Assembly (NCBI GenBank): GCA_020148145.1 | Contig: JAHCRE010000013.1 | Location: 1 to 43,480, forward strand | Source: Patescibacteria group bacterium | GTDB taxonomy: Bacteria > Patescibacteriota > Minisyncoccia > Minisyncoccales > JAHCRE01 | Length of the DNA stretch: 43,480 nt | Direction of reading: 5' to 3' | Shown here: positions 3,698 to 43,480 of the stretch, piece by piece | How the letters are laid out: every line of letters begins with the position of its first letter | Numbering within the stretch: the first letter of the stretch is position 1 | Notes under the pieces: model-generated | What the model saw: only the letters and a program-made list of their open reading frames with translations | Told to the model about the DNA's origin: nothing | Databases searched by the model: none | Position numbers and translations under genes: made by a program

Positions 3698-3952
3698 AAC
3701 CCATATCGGAAGAGGGTCGGTCAAGACGCGAGGCTTCTCCGCGAAACCTGCGAAGCGGGTTGAGTCGGAAAGCCCCGTCTGGGAAACCTTTCGGTTTCCC
3801 CGTATAGGAAAATATTAAAAACCGAAGGGACGCGAGAGTTCTTAGCTCTGCGGAAACTCCCGTCCTAGGGTTTTTAAAGAGCGAGCCCGAAACCCAAAGG
3901 GCGCCAGCCGAAGGCTGGGAGAGGGCGAGCGATCTAAATCTGTAGTACCACT
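3698..3952 (+). repeat. Family A structured GC-rich element, copy 1
   Basis: The core is 3698-3935. The remaining 17 nt up to the pilC ATG also resemble copy 2. It is far richer in GC than its surroundings and has no credible ORF. Helices visible include GGGAAACC/GGTTTCCC at about 3780, a long compound stem with outer arms AAAAACC/GGTTTTT, and CCAGCC/GGCTGG near the end. It lies between the pilB stop and pilC start, so it is probably transcribed with the operon. Function unknown. Confidence 0.9.
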
Positions 3953-5176
3953 ATGCCTAAGTATTTTTATACTGCCAAATCTTTTGGAGGAGAAATGAAA
4001 TCAGAAGTTTTGGAAGCCGAAGACCTCCATCAATTAGCCAGAACTCTTCGCCAAGAAGGATATATTTTAATTTCGGCAACTTTGGAGGGAAGGGAGGTTA
4101 AGGAAAGAAAATTTGAGATCTCCCTTCCTTTTTTTGGAGGAGTTTCTCTGATTGAGAAAATGATGTTTACTAGAAACCTTCGGGTGATGATTGCTGCCGG
4201 CGTTTCTTTGCCTCGGGCCTTGGGAACTTTGGCCATACAGTCAAAAAGTAAAAAGTTTAGAGAGGCTTTATTAGATATAGCCGAAGAGATAACTAAAGGG
4301 AAGAATTTTTCTGACTCTTTGGCTAAATATCCTGATATTTTTTCTGAACTTTTCTCCAGCATGGTAAAGATAGGGGAAGAGGCAGGAACTTTGGAAGATG
4401 TTTTAAAAACTTTAACCGGACAGATGGAAAGGGAGTACGAATTATCATCAAAAGTAAAGGGGGCAATGATCTACCCAGCAGTTATCATTTGCGCAATGAT
4501 AGGGATTGGAATTTTAATGCTGGTTATGGTTGTCCCGAGATTAGCCGAAACTTTTGAGGAATTGAATGTTGAACTTCCTCCCACCACCCAATTAGTAATT
4601 TCTTTAGGTAATTTTTTGGCTGAAAAATGGCCCCTTGCTATTTTAATCGTTTTTGCCACTTTATTTTTATTCAGATTGATTTTAAAGACAAAAGAAGGAA
4701 AAAGAATAATCGATACCTTAATTTTAAAAATTCCTATTGTCTCACCCATTATTAGAAAAACTAACTCTGCCTATACAGTCAGAACTTTAAGTTCTCTTAT
4801 CACCTCAGGAGTGCCGATTGTGAGATCTCTAGAGATTACTTCTGGGGCTTTAGGAAATGTTCATTTTCGAGAGGCAATGGCAGCCTCTGCCATAAAAGTT
4901 AGAAAAGGCTCTAAATTATCTAAAGCTTTGAGGCCTTATCAGAATATTTATCCTCCTTTAGTTATTCAGATGATTGAAGTAGGAGAAGAAACCGGCCAAA
5001 CTTCAGATATATTAGCAAAATTAGCTGATTTTTTTGAAGAAGAGGTTACTAATGCTACTAAAAACTTAACGGCAGTTATTGAGCCAGTTTTAATGCTTCT
5101 TATCGGAGCGGTTGTAGGGCTTTTTGCCGTGTCAATGATTCAGCCAATATATTCTATGTTAGGAGCGATAAAGTAA
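3953..5176 (+). CDS. pilC: Type IV pilus inner-membrane platform protein PilC
   Basis: The 407-aa protein has the two repeated GspF/T2SSF domains of this family, each ending in membrane helices (about residues 170-190, 220-240 and 375-400). The two halves share the FLRxLxxxIxxGVPLxxAL-like pattern (here MFTRNLRVMIAAGVSL and YTVRTLSSLITSGVPI). It anchors PilB and the PilM-N-O complex in the inner membrane. Its ATG follows directly on a family A element, whose end therefore forms its 5' leader. Confidence 0.95.
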   Translation: MPKYFYTAKSFGGEMKSEVLEAEDLHQLARTLRQEGYILISATLEGREVKERKFEISLPFFGGVSLIEKMMFTRNLRVMIAAGVSLPRALGTLAIQSKSKKFREALLDIAEEITKGKNFSDSLAKYPDIFSELFSSMVKIGEEAGTLEDVLKTLTGQMEREYELSSKVKGAMIYPAVIICAMIGIGILMLVMVVPRLAETFEELNVELPPTTQLVISLGNFLAEKWPLAILIVFATLFLFRLILKTKEGKRIIDTLILKIPIVSPIIRKTNSAYTVRTLSSLITSGVPIVRSLEITSGALGNVHFREAMAASAIKVRKGSKLSKALRPYQNIYPPLVIQMIEVGEETGQTSDILAKLADFFEEEVTNATKNLTAVIEPVLMLLIGAVVGLFAVSMIQPIYSMLGAIK

Positions 5177-25110: not shown

Positions 25111-25366
25111 AACCCAAATCGGAGAGGGGTCGGTCAAGACGCGAGGCTTCTTCGCGAAGCCTGCGAAGCGGATTGAGTCGGAAAGCCCCGCCTGGGAGAA
25201 CCTTCCGGTTCTCCCGTGTAGGAAAATATTAAAAACCGAAGGGACGCGAGAGTTCTTAGCTCTGCGGAAACTCCCGTCCTAGGGTTTTTAAAGAGCGAGC
25301 CCGAAGCCCAAAGGGCGCCAGCCGAAGGCTGGGAGAGGGCGAGCGATCTCTCTATGTATTACTACT
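25111..25366 (+). repeat. Family A structured GC-rich element, copy 2
   Basis: The core 25111-25349 matches copy 1 at about 94-95% (about 13 differences). The hairpin near 25195 is GGGAGAACC/GGTTCTCCC here against GGGAAACC/GGTTTCCC in copy 1, so the two arms change together. The last 17 nt before the ATG at 25367 also resemble those before pilC (TAYYACTATG-like ending), so the element reaches the start codon. Confidence 0.9.
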
Positions 25367-26020
25367 ATGCAAATTATTTGGCATGGTCAATCCTGCTTTC
25401 AAATTATTGCCAGTTTTGGAAAAGGGAATAGAGTAAATATTATCGTTGATCCCTTTTCAGAAGATATTGGATTAAAACTTCCTTCATTGGAAGCTGATAT
25501 TTTACTTGTTAGCCACTATCATCACGATCATGATAATGTTAAGGCAGTAAAGGGCTCGCCATTTTTAATTACAGGGCCTGGCGAATATGAGATAAAAAAT
25601 GTATTTATTCAGGGAATTCCGGCCTTCCACGATGATTCCAAAGGCCGAAAAAGAGGAGAGGTGACAATTTTCACTATTGAAACTGAAGGAATGCGACTTT
25701 GCCACTTAGGAGATATTGGTCAAAGGGAATTGAACCCTGATCAACTTGAGAAAATTGGCCAGATTGATATTTTAATGATTCCTGTAGGGGGAATTTATAC
25801 GATTTCTTCTAAAGAAGCCTCAAAAATAATTTCTCAAATTGAGCCAAAAATTGTTATTCCCATGCACTATCAAGTTCCCAGATTGAATATAAAATTAGAA
25901 AGTTTGGATAAATTTCTAAAGACTATGGGTCAAAAATCAATTGAACCTTTAGTTAAATTATTTGTCAAGGAAAAAAACCTACCCACCGAAGAAATGAAAA
26001 TTGTAATCCTGAAACCATAA
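25367..26020 (+). CDS. Metallo-beta-lactamase fold hydrolase (UPF0173/UlaG-like)
   Basis: The 217-aa protein has the metal-binding HxHxDH motif in SHYHHDHD, further ligands in LCHLGDIGQ and IPMHYQVP, and the ITGPGEYEI segment typical of this small family. It is probably a cytosolic metal-dependent hydrolase; the substrate is unknown. Its ATG is set by the end of a family A element, and it starts a unit with the next membrane protein and gyrA (gaps of 2 and 1 nt). Confidence 0.85.
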   Translation: MQIIWHGQSCFQIIASFGKGNRVNIIVDPFSEDIGLKLPSLEADILLVSHYHHDHDNVKAVKGSPFLITGPGEYEIKNVFIQGIPAFHDDSKGRKRGEVTIFTIETEGMRLCHLGDIGQRELNPDQLEKIGQIDILMIPVGGIYTISSKEASKIISQIEPKIVIPMHYQVPRLNIKLESLDKFLKTMGQKSIEPLVKLFVKEKNLPTEEMKIVILKP

Positions 26021-28998: not shown

Positions 28999-29526
28999 GT
29001 GGAAAAGGGATTTCTAAATCCAAAAAAAGTTTTAAATCAAATTAAACTAAGGAAAAATATGATTGCTGCTGATTTTGGCTCAGGTTCTGGTGGTTGGGCA
29101 ATACCTTTGGCGAAAAGGTTGAAAGATGGAAAAGTTTTTGCTATTGATATCTTAGAGGAGCCTTTATCGGCCTTAAAAAGTAAAGCCGAAATTGAGAGGA
29201 TTTCAAATATTGAGACAGTTCTCTCTGATGTGGAAAGGGAAAATGGTTCAAAATTAGCTAATAATTTTTTAGACTTGGTTTTAATGACCAATCTTTTATT
29301 TGAGATAGAGGATAAAAAATTAGTAATGTCTGAGGCTAAAAGAGTATTAAAAAAAAGAGGGAAAATTTTGATTGTTGATTGGAAACCTGAGGTTTCTCTA
29401 GGTCCAAAAAAAGGAAGAGTTGCCCTAAAAGATATAAAAAAAATAGCCGAAGACCTTGATTTAAAATTAAAAAAAGAGTTTACAGCTGGGGCTTACCATT
29501 ATGGATTAATATTTTCTAAGCCATAA
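28999..29526 (+). CDS. Class I SAM-dependent methyltransferase
   Basis: The 175-aa protein has the SAM-binding glycine loop DFGSGSGGW (motif I), an acidic residue after the second strand (VFAIDI) and the motif IV/post region LVLMTNLLFEI. The substrate is unknown. The frame begins with GTG 28999. The last nine codons (HYGLIFSKP) are echoed 3' of the adjacent family B element as HYGLIFTRT with a stop. Confidence 0.85.
   Translation: MEKGFLNPKKVLNQIKLRKNMIAADFGSGSGGWAIPLAKRLKDGKVFAIDILEEPLSALKSKAEIERISNIETVLSDVERENGSKLANNFLDLVLMTNLLFEIEDKKLVMSEAKRVLKKRGKILIVDWKPEVSLGPKKGRVALKDIKKIAEDLDLKLKKEFTAGAYHYGLIFSKP
29495..29520 (+). repeat. Left copy of the tail duplication at B copy 1
   Basis: These 26 bp encode the C-terminal HYGLIFSK of the methyltransferase. 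They match 29674-29699 at 22 of the first 24 positions. Confidence 0.85.
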
Positions 29527-29530
29527 TGGC

Positions 29531-29675
29531 ACAGAGGGGGTCGGGGAGATTGGGTAGGGGCCCGCGTCTGAAGCGGGAGGGTGGCGGGTGGGTGGCGCGT
29601 CCCCGTATAGGAAAACAGCGAGCGAATGAAATGAGCGAGAGTTAGAAACCGTGGGTTTCTAAGGAGCAAAGCGAC
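29531..29675 (+). repeat. Family B structured GC-rich element, copy 1
   Basis: It begins ACAGAGGGGGTCGGGG and ends GGAGCAAAGCGAC. Visible helices are CCCGC/GCGGG, TTAGAAACC/GGTTTCTAA, and the end-to-end pair GGTCG/CGACC. It contains the core CCCCGTATAGGAAAA shared with family A. It lies directly after the methyltransferase stop codon. Confidence 0.85.
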
Positions 29676-29705
29676 CATTATGGCTTAATATTTACTAGAA
29701 CTTAG
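29674..29705 (+). repeat. Right copy of the tail duplication at B copy 1
   Basis: It reads CAT TAT GGC TTA ATA TTT, then ACT AGA ACT TAG, encoding HYGLIFTRT and a stop. It begins immediately after the GCGAC end of the element. Confidence 0.8.
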
Positions 29706-30131: not shown

Positions 30132-30530
30132 ATGAGTAAAGTCATTTCAGTTCTAGTCTTAGTAAGTCTTTTGACTTTTTTGGTATTGCCAATGGTAGCC
30201 CTAGCCCAGGACACATGTACCTTAGAGGAAGATTTGTCTGATATTCATCCAGATTGTACAGCAGGTTCAGAAGTAGACCTAGATACGTATGGGATGTGTT
30301 GTTTAGTGAATTCAATCTATGTTGTTACTAAATGGTTAACCTTTATTATAGGGGGTGTTGTTGGGCTTATGATAATTGCCGGAGCATTTATGATTGTAAC
30401 AGCAGGTGGTAATCCAGAGAAAGTGACCTCTGGAAGAAATCTTATTTTGTATGCAGTAATAGGTATGGTAGTTGCCCTTTTTGCCAGGGCTATTCCAGCC
30501 ATTGCAAAGGCAATTCTAGGAATAGGATAA
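30132..30530 (+). CDS. VirB2-like small pilin protein, paralogue 1
   Basis: The 132-aa protein has a signal peptide ending in ALAQ, a mature N-terminus with four cysteines (DTC, PDC, MCC) and two helices around VTAGGNPEKVTSGRN. It is closely related to the next gene, including long stretches of identical DNA. The cysteines suggest disulfides or a metal site outside the cell. Confidence 0.75.
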   Translation: MSKVISVLVLVSLLTFLVLPMVALAQDTCTLEEDLSDIHPDCTAGSEVDLDTYGMCCLVNSIYVVTKWLTFIIGGVVGLMIIAGAFMIVTAGGNPEKVTSGRNLILYAVIGMVVALFARAIPAIAKAILGIG

Positions 30531-30642: not shown

Positions 30643-31032
30643 ATGAACAAAATTATTTCGGTTTTAGCTCTGGTAGGTCTTTTAGTTTTGCCAATGGTAG
30701 CCCTAGCCCAAGATACATGTCACTTAGAGGAAGATTTGACCGAGATTGACCCGACCTGTACAAGCGGTTCAGACGTAGATCTAGATACGTATGGGATGTG
30801 TTGTTTAGTGAATTCAATCTATATTCTTACTAAATGGCTAACTTTTATTATAGGGGGTGTTGTTGGGCTTATGATAATTGCCGGAGCATTTTTGCTTGTG
30901 ACGGCAGGTGGAGCACCTGATAAGGTAAGCACTGGGAGAAATTATATTTTGTATGCAGTAATAGGTATGGTAGTTGCCCTTTTTGCCAGGGCTATTCCAG
31001 CCATTGCCAAAAGGCTAGTAGGAATATACTAG
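30643..31032 (+). CDS. VirB2-like small pilin protein, paralogue 2
   Basis: The 129-aa protein has the same layout as its upstream neighbour: signal peptide, four cysteines, two helices. The centre (TYGMCCLVNSIY and FIIGGVVGLMIIAGAF) is almost identical, while the N-terminal loop and C-terminus differ. The 3' flanks of the two genes also match in part (CGGAAAGAAC), so the duplication included the downstream region. A strong terminator follows. Confidence 0.75.
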   Translation: MNKIISVLALVGLLVLPMVALAQDTCHLEEDLTEIDPTCTSGSDVDLDTYGMCCLVNSIYILTKWLTFIIGGVVGLMIIAGAFLLVTAGGAPDKVSTGRNYILYAVIGMVVALFARAIPAIAKRLVGIY

Positions 31033-35914: not shown

Positions 35915-35983
35915 ATATATACCTATCTTAAATTTTTCCTTGCCTTTTTTCAATCTTTTTGCTAAATTTAATTTAGCAAAAAA

Positions 35984-36149
35984 ACAGAGGGGGGTCGGGG
36001 GAACTGGGTGGGGGCCCGCGAAGCGGGAGGGTGGCGGGTGGGTGGCGTCCCCCGCATAGGAAGACAGGGAGGAGTGAAGCGACGACTGCCAGAAACCGAG
36101 GGTGTCTGGGGAACGGTGTTAGTGGAGCAAAGCGACGCGTACCGCGACC
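35984..36149 (+). repeat. Family B structured GC-rich element, copy 2
   Basis: It has the same 5' domain (GGGGGGTCGGGG, CCCGCGAAGCGGG) and the hairpin CCAGA/TCTGG, but the right end is longer and repeats GCGAC twice. The flanks show no clear tail duplication, so it may be an older copy. It lies between the divergent tsaD start and the tRNA block. Confidence 0.8.
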
Positions 36150-36399: not shown

Positions 36400-37953
36400 A
36401 TGGAAGAAGATTATTATCTTAAAGTTAATCGGGCCTCTGATTTAAAGGATTCAAAAGAAAGGGCGCTTTTTAGGTTTTTTGAGATTTTTCCAGGATTGAT
36501 ATCCTGGGGAACATTAATTTTAGTAATTATTCTCTCCTGGCAGAAACCTTTTTTTGTTGCTATTTTTATTATTTTTTTCGTGATATACTGGTTTTTCCGA
36601 ACAATTTATCTTTCCTTTCACCTTCGATCTGGGTTTAAAAGAATGAAAGAGCACGAGAATACCAATTGGCTAGAGAGACTTAATCAACTGAAAAATAGAA
36701 ATTGGAAAAATATTTATCATTTGATCATTTTCCCAATGTATAAAGAGCCTCTGGAAATTGCTAGGGAGACTTTTAGAGCCTTAGAAAATACTGATTATCC
36801 TAAGGATAAAATGATTGTGGTTTTAGCTTGTGAAGAAAGAGCAGGGGAGAAAGCAAAAAAAACAGCTAAAATTATTGAAAAAGAATTTGGAAAAAAATTT
36901 TTTAAATTCTTAATCACTTTTCATCCAGCAAATTTACCAGGAGAAATTGCTGGTAAGGGTTCAAACGAAGCCTGGGCGGCAAAAAGGGTAAAAGAGCTTT
37001 TAATAGATCCTCTAAAAATTCCCTATCGAAATATCATTTTTTCTTCTTTTGATACTGATACCTGTGTTTTCCCGAAATATTTTAGTTGTTTAACCTATCA
37101 TTATTTAACCTTAAAGAGGCCCGCTAGAACCAGTTTTCAACCTGTCCCCCTTTTCATTAATAATATCTGGCAGGCCCCTAGTATTTCTCGAATTTTTTCT
37201 TTCTCCTCAACTTTCTGGCATACTATGAACCAAGAAAGGCCAGAAAAACTGATTACTTTTTCTTCCCATTCAATGAGTTTTAAAACTCTAGTTGATGTTG
37301 ATTTTAAACAAAAAAATGTTGTTTCAGACGATTCAAGAATTTTTTGGCAGTGCTTTCTGAAATATGATGGAGATTATAATGTTCAACCTCTCTATTATCC
37401 AGTTTCAATGGATGCTAATGTAGCCAAAAGTTTTTGGAGAACATTAATTAACATTTATAAACAACAAAGGAGATGGTCTTATGGAGTAGGGGATATACCC
37501 TATTTTCTTTTTGGCTTTTTTAAAAATAAAAAAATCCCAATATCCAAAAAATTTTCTCTGGGATTTGAGTCAATTGAGGGTCACTGGTCTTGGGCCACTG
37601 CCTCTATTTTAATCTTTCTCTTGGGGTGGCTACCTTTGATTTTAGGGGGAGAAGAGTTTTCCCAAACCTTAATTTCTTATAACTTACCAATAATAACAAG
37701 AAATATCTTGACCATAACTATGATAGGTTTAGTAGGTTCTGCTTATTTTAGTCTCCTTTTACTTCCTCCTCGGCCACCCAAATATGGTCGGTTTAAATTC
37801 TTGATTTTAATCTTCCAATGGTTGTTCCTGCCCTTGACTATGATATTTTTTAGTTCCCTTCCAGCCTTAGATGCTCAGACCAGGTGGATGTTAGGGAAAT
37901 ACATGGGTTTTTGGCCGACCGAGAAAATCCGAAAGAATTTCGAAGGAGGCTAA
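36400..37953 (+). CDS. Membrane glycosyltransferase, family 2
   Basis: The 517-aa protein has two N-terminal membrane helices (about residues 32-68), a cytosolic GT-A domain and three or four C-terminal helices (from about residue 395). Catalytic features are SSFDTDTC (DxD), the acid in VVSDDSR and QQRRW, the motif of cellulose-synthase-like enzymes that add sugars to a growing chain at the membrane. The product is unknown. Its C-terminal FWPTEKIRKNFEGG is echoed as FWPTEKIRQ with a stop after the following family B element. Confidence 0.85.
   Translation: MEEDYYLKVNRASDLKDSKERALFRFFEIFPGLISWGTLILVIILSWQKPFFVAIFIIFFVIYWFFRTIYLSFHLRSGFKRMKEHENTNWLERLNQLKNRNWKNIYHLIIFPMYKEPLEIARETFRALENTDYPKDKMIVVLACEERAGEKAKKTAKIIEKEFGKKFFKFLITFHPANLPGEIAGKGSNEAWAAKRVKELLIDPLKIPYRNIIFSSFDTDTCVFPKYFSCLTYHYLTLKRPARTSFQPVPLFINNIWQAPSISRIFSFSSTFWHTMNQERPEKLITFSSHSMSFKTLVDVDFKQKNVVSDDSRIFWQCFLKYDGDYNVQPLYYPVSMDANVAKSFWRTLINIYKQQRRWSYGVGDIPYFLFGFFKNKKIPISKKFSLGFESIEGHWSWATASILIFLLGWLPLILGGEEFSQTLISYNLPIITRNILTITMIGLVGSAYFSLLLLPPRPPKYGRFKFLILIFQWLFLPLTMIFFSSLPALDAQTRWMLGKYMGFWPTEKIRKNFEGG
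37909..37934 (+). repeat. Left copy of the tail duplication at B copy 3
   Basis: These bases encode FWPTEKIRK at the end of the glycosyltransferase and match 38110-38135 at 23 of 26 positions. Confidence 0.85.
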
Positions 37954-37957
37954 AAAC

Positions 37958-38109
37958 CAGAAAGGGGGTCGGGGGAACTGGGCAGGGACCCGCGAAGCGG
38001 GAGGGTGGTGGGTGGGTGGCGTCCCCCGTGTAGGAAAACAGCGACTCTCCGAAGCCTTAGCGAAGGATGAAAGCGCCAGAAACCGTGGGTGTCTGGGGAG
38101 CGAAGCGAC
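37958..38109 (+). repeat. Family B structured GC-rich element, copy 3
   Basis: It has GGGGGTCGGGG, CCCGCGAAGCGGG, the core CCCCGTGTAGGAAAACAG, the hairpin CCAGAAACC/GGTGTCTGG and the end GGAGCGAAGCGAC. It starts just after the glycosyltransferase stop codon. Confidence 0.85.
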
Positions 38110-38139
38110 TTTTGGCCGACTGAGAAAATTCGACAATAA
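38110..38139 (+). repeat. Right copy of the tail duplication at B copy 3
   Basis: Directly after GCGAC the sequence reads TTT TGG CCG ACT GAG AAA, then ATT CGA CAA TAA, encoding FWPTEKIRQ and a stop. Two of the differences from the left copy are synonymous (ACC/ACT, ATC/ATT). Confidence 0.85.
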
Positions 38140-42290: not shown

Positions 42291-43355
42291 ATGATTCGAT
42301 TCCCTTTTAAAATCGCATCTAAAAGATGTTTGGGGATAGATATTGGAACATCGAGTATCAAAATTGTTGAGTTGTCTCTCCGGGGAGAGAAAGTAAAATT
42401 AGAAAGATATGGTGAAATAGCGGTTCAAACCCTTTATGAAAAACCATTCCGAACTTCTGAAAAAAGTACCCTTTTACTCTCTAGTCGAGATATTGCCCGG
42501 GCAATCTCAGCTGTTTTAAAAGAAACAAAAATTTCAGAAAGAAAAACTATTTTCTCCATTCCTGATTTCTCCAGTTTCTTTACCAATTTTGAACTGCCAC
42601 CAATGACTAAAGAAGAAATAGCCGAGGCAGTAAGATTTGAGGCCCGACATCATATTCCTCTTCCTTTATCTGAGATAGTTTTAGACTGGTCAATAGTCGG
42701 AGGAGTAGTTGACCAAAAAAAAACTCCTCTGAAAATATTATTAGTCGCCGTTCCAAAAAGTATTATTTCCCAATATCAACAAATAGCAATTCTGGCCAAT
42801 CTCGAAATTAAAGCCCTAGAGGCAGAAGCATTTGCACTGGTAAGATCTTTAGTTAAAGAGGATAAAAGAGTAATTGCCTTGTTAGATATTGGAGCCCAGA
42901 GTACTACCGTCAGCATTATTGATCAGGGAATTTTAAAAATATCACATAGCTTTGATGTTTCAGGAAATGAATTGACCCAAATGATATCTAAATCTCTGAA
43001 TGTTGATTATAAAAAAGCAGAAAATTTAAAAAAAGAATACGGGTTAATACCTTCAGAGAGAAATATTAGAGAAATTTTAATCCCCTTGATTGATTTAATT
43101 TTAATTGAAATGGAAAAAACCTCTCGGACCCTATATGGAGCTGAAAAAAAAGAAATCCAAAAATTTATTATAGCTGGAGGAATAGCCTTGCTTCCTGGTC
43201 TAAAAGAATATCTCACAGAAGGTCTCAAAAAAGAAGTAGAAATTGCTAATCCCTTTTCCAATATTTTATATCCCCCAATCCTTGAAAAAACTTTAAAGGA
43301 AATAGGGCCTAGTTACGCAATAGCAGTAGGTGTGGCTCTAAGGGGACTAGAATAA
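42291..43355 (+). CDS. Second PilM-like type IV pilus protein
   Basis: The 354-aa protein has the same actin-like fold as the pilM product at 8528: LGIDIGTSSIKIVELS, ALLDIGAQSTTVSIID and IIAGGIALLPGLKEYL. The conserved RFEARHHIPLPLSEIVLDW segment also matches PilM. Identity with the first copy is moderate, so it is a diverged paralogue. A family A element begins at its stop codon. Confidence 0.88.
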   Translation: MIRFPFKIASKRCLGIDIGTSSIKIVELSLRGEKVKLERYGEIAVQTLYEKPFRTSEKSTLLLSSRDIARAISAVLKETKISERKTIFSIPDFSSFFTNFELPPMTKEEIAEAVRFEARHHIPLPLSEIVLDWSIVGGVVDQKKTPLKILLVAVPKSIISQYQQIAILANLEIKALEAEAFALVRSLVKEDKRVIALLDIGAQSTTVSIIDQGILKISHSFDVSGNELTQMISKSLNVDYKKAENLKKEYGLIPSERNIREILIPLIDLILIEMEKTSRTLYGAEKKEIQKFIIAGGIALLPGLKEYLTEGLKKEVEIANPFSNILYPPILEKTLKEIGPSYAIAVGVALRGLE

Positions 43356-43480
43356 TCGGAGAGGGGTCGGTCAAGACGCGAGGCTTCTCCGCGAAGCCTG
43401 CGAAGCGGATTGAGTCGGAAAGCCCCGTCTGGGAAACCATTCGGTTCTCCCGTATAGGAAAATATTAAGAACCGAAGGGA
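43354..43480 (+). repeat. Family A structured GC-rich element, copy 3 (cut by window edge)
   Basis: The visible 127 nt match copies 1 and 2 from AATCGGAGAGGGGTCGGTC onward, including GGGAAACC/GGTTCTCCC and the core CCCGTATAGGAAAATATTA. The first bases overlap the TAA stop of the second pilM. Confidence 0.88.

Follow-up and report, generated by a model that had tools for sequence, protein, structure and literature searches.

The window analysed here, a stretch of 43,480 nucleotides from a Patescibacteria group bacterium (contig JAHCRE010000013.1), contains a gene whose coding end is present twice, on the two sides of a short non-coding element of a family named B, raising the question of how such an element comes to lie in a gene end and what keeps both copies of that end in coding shape. 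The open reading frame at 36400-37953 ends with ..FWPTEKIRKNFEGG-stop, and its tail is found again across the third B copy of the window, as the sequence-only reading had placed it: positions 37909-37934 and 38110-38135 (TTTTGGCCGACCGAGAAAATCCGAAA and TTTTGGCCGACTGAGAAAATTCGACA) are identical at 23 of 26 bases, the element lies in between, and two of the changes are synonymous (ACC/ACT and ATC/ATT). The GCGAC closing the element occupies 38105-38109 and is directly followed by the detached gene end, encoding FWPTEKIRQ-stop (38110-38139); the related genome G001, whose gene is unoccupied, has the same bases over the first 24 nt of this end. Regarding the product, that reading had called it a glycosyltransferase, a label that finds no support above the cut-off in Pfam or NCBIfam; the family is not confirmed, and a GT2-like membrane protein is still plausible.

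The element begins further upstream than the earlier description, which had overlooked the arm in front of the core. The attached end at 37909-37953, read from the sequence, comprises a short stretch T, the rest of the tail and the stop codon, joined to the gene body. The 5' arm of a hairpin, GGTTTTT at 37906-37912, was also read from the sequence together with family-wide statistics, and its reverse complement T', AAAAACC at 37952-37958, overlaps the stop codon. The core then runs from 37958 to 38109, having two covarying hairpins, as seen from hairpin pair counts, and the conserved GCGAC right end; a covariance model (R1), based on 13 copies that DNA searches had located, matches 37958-38102. 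Nested inside the first hairpin of this core is a G-rich insert of about 42 nt, the C element (ACCCGCGAAGCGGGAGGGTGGTGGGTGGGTGG..., 37984-38024). All these features lie on the plus strand, as do those of the other B copies of the window.

The other case mentioned in the sequence-only reading, placed there at 29495, was verified as well. B copy 1 lies at the end of a methyltransferase gene (28999-29526), whose attached end at 29496-29526 is duplicated at 29676-29705, the detached end HYGLIFTRT-stop; the T' of this copy, CCATAATGG at 29521-29529, is the complement of CCATTATGG at 29496-29504, and its core, matched by R1, occupies 29530-29675 and ends with GCGAC. B copy 2 (35956-36139, R1 match) is formed by the hairpin TTTTTGCTAAA/TTTAGCAAAAA and a core, and adjoins the 5' end of tsaD on the minus strand; a clear coding duplication is absent there. 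Separately, two adjacent small genes carry a tandem 300-nt direct repeat (30178-30477 and 30680-30979) with 86% identity.

The minimal B core has about 80 nt and follows the plan CACAGAGGGGGTC - hairpin - GTGTAGGAAA - hairpin - GGAGCGAAGCGAC. Both hairpins carry many compensatory pairs: five variable pairs of the first are canonical in 93-97% of 107 copies, with exchanges between G-C and A-T, and the outer pairs of the second use up to four pair types. The model also matches a related A type, which starts with TCGG, has the right end ..TATTACCACT(ATG), is intergenic and lacks both T' and the end duplication, then serving as an internal negative control for these two features. A-type relatives with a B-like core plan are located at 3705-3956, 25118-25370 and 43355-43480 of the window, and at L053-L057 and L128-L142 elsewhere, with the conserved right end TATTACCACT directly 5' of a start codon or tRNA; they are possibly a cis-acting leader or a mobile family with fixed ends.

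As a control for chance, upstream flanks were paired with downstream flanks belonging to other elements and scored without gaps; the two flanks of B copy 3 reach a score of 18, compared to 12.6 at the 99th percentile of this pairing. The comparison proposed in the earlier reading, of the DNA after GCGAC with the 3' end of the preceding gene, gave a positive outcome for B and a negative one for the A type. In the 53 copies whose duplication is coding, the two ends differ synonymously at 186 codons and non-synonymously at 140, whereas equally many changes placed at random yield 53 synonymous (maximum 73) and 285 non-synonymous (minimum 267). Flank pairing and codon tests agree with the earlier claim that the duplication derives from the local gene and varies by gene, far beyond chance and as a rule of the B family.

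The order gene body, tail, stop, element, tail, stop, which had been put forward as a rule, does hold for B copies such as this one but is too narrow, as gene 5' starts in the antisense orientation and tRNA 3' ends (L118, L245, L249 and others) are also targeted. Thirty-eight of the 53 scored copies lie at gene 3' ends in the sense orientation and 15 are antisense at gene 5' starts, duplicating the beginnings of RNase H, L14, S15, L16, DnaX, LepA and L32 (outside the window, gene names at B sites are the authors' reading of the peptides). After trimming, the ratio of synonymous to non-synonymous differences is 155/103 in the sense copies, compared to 41/220 expected, and 31/19 in the antisense copies, compared to 10/44, so that both ends are under protein-level constraint in both orientations.

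When compared with unoccupied orthologues of other genera, the attached ends match at 506 of 652 positions and the detached ends at 509, indicating equal constraint on the two; the idea, first suggested by the L14 case, that detached ends are generally nearer to the native orthologues was thus rejected. The two ends are closer to each other (identity 0.83) than to the orthologues (0.78 and 0.77), which points to a duplication from the local lineage, both copies being equally constrained since. A generally foreign composition of the attached ends was likewise rejected, as GC3 is 0.37 in attached ends, 0.36 in detached ends and 0.36 in the gene body; of 132 informative synonymous differences, 79 give the attached end the higher GC, a weak tendency (p 0.03).

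The T' arm consists of the bases directly 5' of the core and is the reverse complement of the first 7 to 19 or so bases of the attached end, that is, of T. Besides GGTTTTT/AAAAACC and CCATTATGG/CCATAATGG in the window, the longest pairing seen elsewhere has 19 bp (EF-G, L124). Over the 53 coding copies, the mean complementarity of T' is 13.2 to the attached T, 10.6 to the detached T and 6.4 to unrelated elements, with the attached T exceeding the control in 51 copies. The attached T is the better fit in 42 copies, the detached one in two, and nine are equal, a comparison partly biased because the copies were picked by similarity. Moreover, T and T' co-vary between genomes at the S9 site (AGACAGTG/CACTGTCT, AGACAATG/CATTGTCT and CCCACAATG/CATTGTGGG) and at the DnaX start (GGTCTATATTTTCT/AGAAAATATAGACC and GGTCTGTATTTTCT/AGAAAATACAGACC). 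Some T' arms are decayed, as are some detached ends (for example, MT in G001). Besides the carried end, only T' varies with the target, which makes it most likely a determinant, or a record, of target specificity.

The insertion sites are shared over long distances. Identical codons are occupied in distant genomes in GAPDH, S10, EF-G, S9, S7, GT (the gene described here), a glycoside-hydrolase-like protein (GH-like), a solute-binding protein (SBP), MurC, PGK, L16 and DnaX. Cores at the same site are more similar across genomes than expected by label permutation (0.66 compared to 0.60, p 0.003), and core subtypes differ within one site, indicating that cores are exchanged. In S9 (L215), two complete units stand in tandem 5' of the displaced tail, each having its own tail and T', and tandem units with their own tail and T' are also found at the tRNA site L118.

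Four sites (GT, MT, NusG and CTP) are occupied in two or three genomes, then allowing the ends to be compared. For GT, the attached end at 37909-37953 agrees at 39 of 45 positions with the same site in G002, having AATTTCGAAGGAGGCTAAAAACCA in common, whereas attached and detached ends within a genome agree at 29/45 and 26/45. The corresponding values are 25-27/30 between genomes compared to 23/30 and 19/30 within for MT, and 24/27 compared to 20/27 and 14/27 for NusG. This likeness of attached ends between genera extends into the untranslated flank and T' (AATTTCGAAGGAGGCTAAAAACCA; CATATAAATATGCCAAAAC), so that each of these three sites seems to own an element-borne end. CTP is the exception, with 40/51 within a genome compared to 38/51 between genomes and no element-borne end. 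Consequently, the earlier statement that no fixed sequence came with the element is right across genes but fails within one gene at GT, MT and NusG; likewise, the earlier interpretation as a whole had the duplication right and was incomplete with respect to T', orientation, tRNA targets and element-borne ends.

Regarding polarity, the detached end and its outer flank represent the ancestral arrangement in NusG and CTP, as seen from the orthologues in G001 and G002. Empty sites were compared in one close genome pair, G001 and G002, with about 90% identity. In L14 (L148 in G002, L149 in G001), the 5' UTR and the detached head, together more than 100 nt, show 100% identity to the empty site of G001, compared to only 86-91% in the neighbouring coding DNA, which suggests a recent exchange between the two genomes; the stretch is thus, alone, no proof of a foreign attached end. 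The local origin and equal constraint of the two ends, on the one hand, and the likeness of attached ends between genera, on the other, both fit gene-specific cassettes which retain an end of their own and switch back and forth between occupied and empty sites or genomes.

With about even chances, then, B elements are gene-specific non-coding mobile cassettes that enter, and probably leave, at T by DNA-level machinery. Such a cassette comprises T, the rest of the gene end, the stop (or start), T' and a structured core of about 80-150 nt ending with GCGAC, and it directly precedes the T inside the native gene (or tRNA) end, T being short and conserved. The gene runs on into the cassette's own end, its native end being displaced to the far side; as the gene is intact in the occupied and in the empty state alike, purifying selection continues to act on both ends. 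Entry, and sometimes exit, at T would be a DNA-level process acting in trans, presumably reversible, and passage between related genomes would amount to homing. An excision product or circle was not seen, which counts against this cassette, as do the CTP pattern, the decay of some T' arms and detached ends, and the copies L251, L245 and L208, which look like plain fresh target duplications with a T' that fold-back synthesis could have made. The equal distance of both ends to the natives also fits a local duplication in which both copies are constrained for another reason.

A more specific form of the cassette reading is tentative and possible at best: T', as RNA or folded single-stranded DNA, would lead an enzyme acting in trans to the T of an essential gene, the recoded end would repair the gene on arrival, and specificity would shift when the unit takes a new gene, thus making a nucleic-acid-guided homing cassette with built-in rescue. 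If true, this would be a naturally occurring counterpart of a targeted gene drive that includes rescue, and with T' as the guide, a compact reprogrammable insertion system in Patescibacteria, a phylum with little-known mobile elements. In any case, the family offers an unusually clear natural case of a very small non-coding element whose insertion into essential genes is tolerated because it carries the gene end, with a variable arm matching each target. Guide or not, the long-term protein-level constraint on the displaced end calls for a process that is reversible.

The freshest copies (L208, L144, L124, L251, L245 and L034) have duplications of 30-112 nt: 112 of 112 aligned bases are identical in L208, exact duplications span 89 nt in L144 and 75 nt in L124, and the 32-nt duplication of L251 is abutted by T'. 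In L245, the six nucleotides CGGGAT directly preceding the new T' bases belong to the native sequence too, as though they had primed a copy of T; in both L251 and L245 the T' bases continue native bases that were complementary to T beforehand, and they end at the T edge, as in fold-back synthesis, which may be how a unit gains T' on a new target. L237, another fresh copy, has two mismatches between T' and T despite a perfect 30-nt duplication, in agreement with a T' older than the insertion.

Such copies, with T' and the detached copy ending at the same edge, argue for a one-way insertion with a long duplication of the target site (30-110 bp), in which a staggered cut would leave a 3' overhang whose fold-back allows T to be copied into T' as far as the cut edge, the core would be copied in from the other 3' end in a target-primed manner, and detached ends would be conserved because they are young. 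This course of events is rather unlikely, as old copies are near-saturated with synonymous changes and have few replacements (18 synonymous and three non-synonymous in 25 codons of EF-G, L242), and neutral decay of the detached copy would not predict two ends equidistant from the natives. In addition, it leaves unexplained the same-codon recurrence in distant genomes and the attached ends shared between genera; the duplications of the fresh copies span 30-112 nt, yet the sites recur at fixed codons, and a reverse transcriptase (PF00078) was not found in the own genome, G000 (present in nine of 40 relatives).

It is improbable that no dedicated machinery exists and that rare insertions spread by natural transformation and ordinary homologous recombination, keeping the detached ends native-like. 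The mosaic L205, with 63 exact nucleotides and then synonymous change up to the stop, and the identical L14 stretch both favour it, but T' and the structured core would be left without a role, and a separate origin would be needed for the roughly 30 copies per genome. Very unlikely is a new kind of RNA intron, in which T-to-GCGAC would be spliced out with T' aligning both T copies and the carried tail would keep unspliced mRNA functional: T does occur on each side of the segment, either copy being open to pairing with T', the core is structured with compensatory pairs and the detached tail keeps its coding sense, but the antisense copies show the same constraint where mRNA splicing cannot act, ruling it out as a general explanation, mid-gene copies, where splicing would be needed, were not seen, and Rfam at gathering and relaxed thresholds gave no family and no group I or II intron.

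As for the enzyme, TnpB, IS110 recombinase (PF02371), Y1 transposase and serine recombinase were not found in G000 either; among the 40 genomes, PF02371 is present in two, Y1 transposase in 21 without association with element presence, and the Nop domain of TIGR-Tas (PF01798) in none, a Pfam model possibly too distant for Tas. Tyrosine recombinases of the Xer kind are found in nearly all genomes and are thus uninformative, and G030 has nine model matches with no PF00589 (tyrosine recombinase) match. The enzyme may be an ordinary host recombination protein.

Phages, integrative conjugative elements and islands, such as SXT/R391 at prfC, insert into the end of a gene or tRNA and regenerate that end. 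B resembles them in the short identity block T at both junctions, the constrained end supplied by the element and the displaced native end; it differs in being about 150-250 nt long, non-coding and without its own tyrosine or serine integrase, with dozens of copies per genome, a different target for each copy and T'. Homing introns and inteins also occupy the same codon of conserved genes repeatedly across distant genomes, but B has no endonuclease ORF, is commonly antisense, and carries the gene end instead of being spliced. MITEs, REPINs and Rickettsia palindromic elements are short, non-autonomous and multicopy with palindromic ends, as is B, whose ends are target-derived, T' varying per target, instead of fixed terminal inverted repeats, and which has carried gene ends and a structured core. 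Finally, IS110 bridge-RNA elements have a conserved non-coding scaffold and a variable part complementary to the target (PMC11208160), a likeness to B that extends to the IscB/TnpB guide-RNA systems; in B, T' varies from copy to copy and matches a T that the element also carries, and G000 has neither an IS110 recombinase nor TnpB. Literature searches did not yield a description of such elements, and the B family looks unlike any described element among those compared.

The own genome (809 kb, assembly 96% complete) has 31 covariance-model matches of the B and A types at E 0.01 or better, and matches occur in 17 of 40 relatives. A degenerate core pattern found 77 stretches among about 85,000 species genomes (one per species), essentially all Patescibacteria by record title, including Staskawicz-, Nealson-, Wildermuth-, Kaiser-, Zambryski-, Vogel-, Yanofsky- and Portnoybacteria; one is in a record titled Euryarchaeota, possibly by a binning error. 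The pattern had no match in 2.9 million viral contigs, and a viral origin was rejected.

Other elements accompany the family. A B-like subclass at L109, L112, L123 and L143 has a conserved left hairpin (TTGTATAGGAATTT../..AAATTCCTATACAA) and a right hairpin (GAACATAG../..CTATGTTC), apparently without a target-derived T. The C element, about 42 nt, G-rich and quadruplex-like (GGGGCCCGC..GCGGGAGGGTGGTGGGTGGGTTGGAGTCC), is nested in B cores and is also found alone inside genes; besides 37984-38024, it is located at 36012-36050 of the window and at L009, L010, L012, L015, L018, L019, L021, L024 and L026. By reading, genes with an in-frame copy include ribosomal protein L3, UvrB and an MBL-fold gene, such in-frame insertions resembling Rickettsia palindromic elements.
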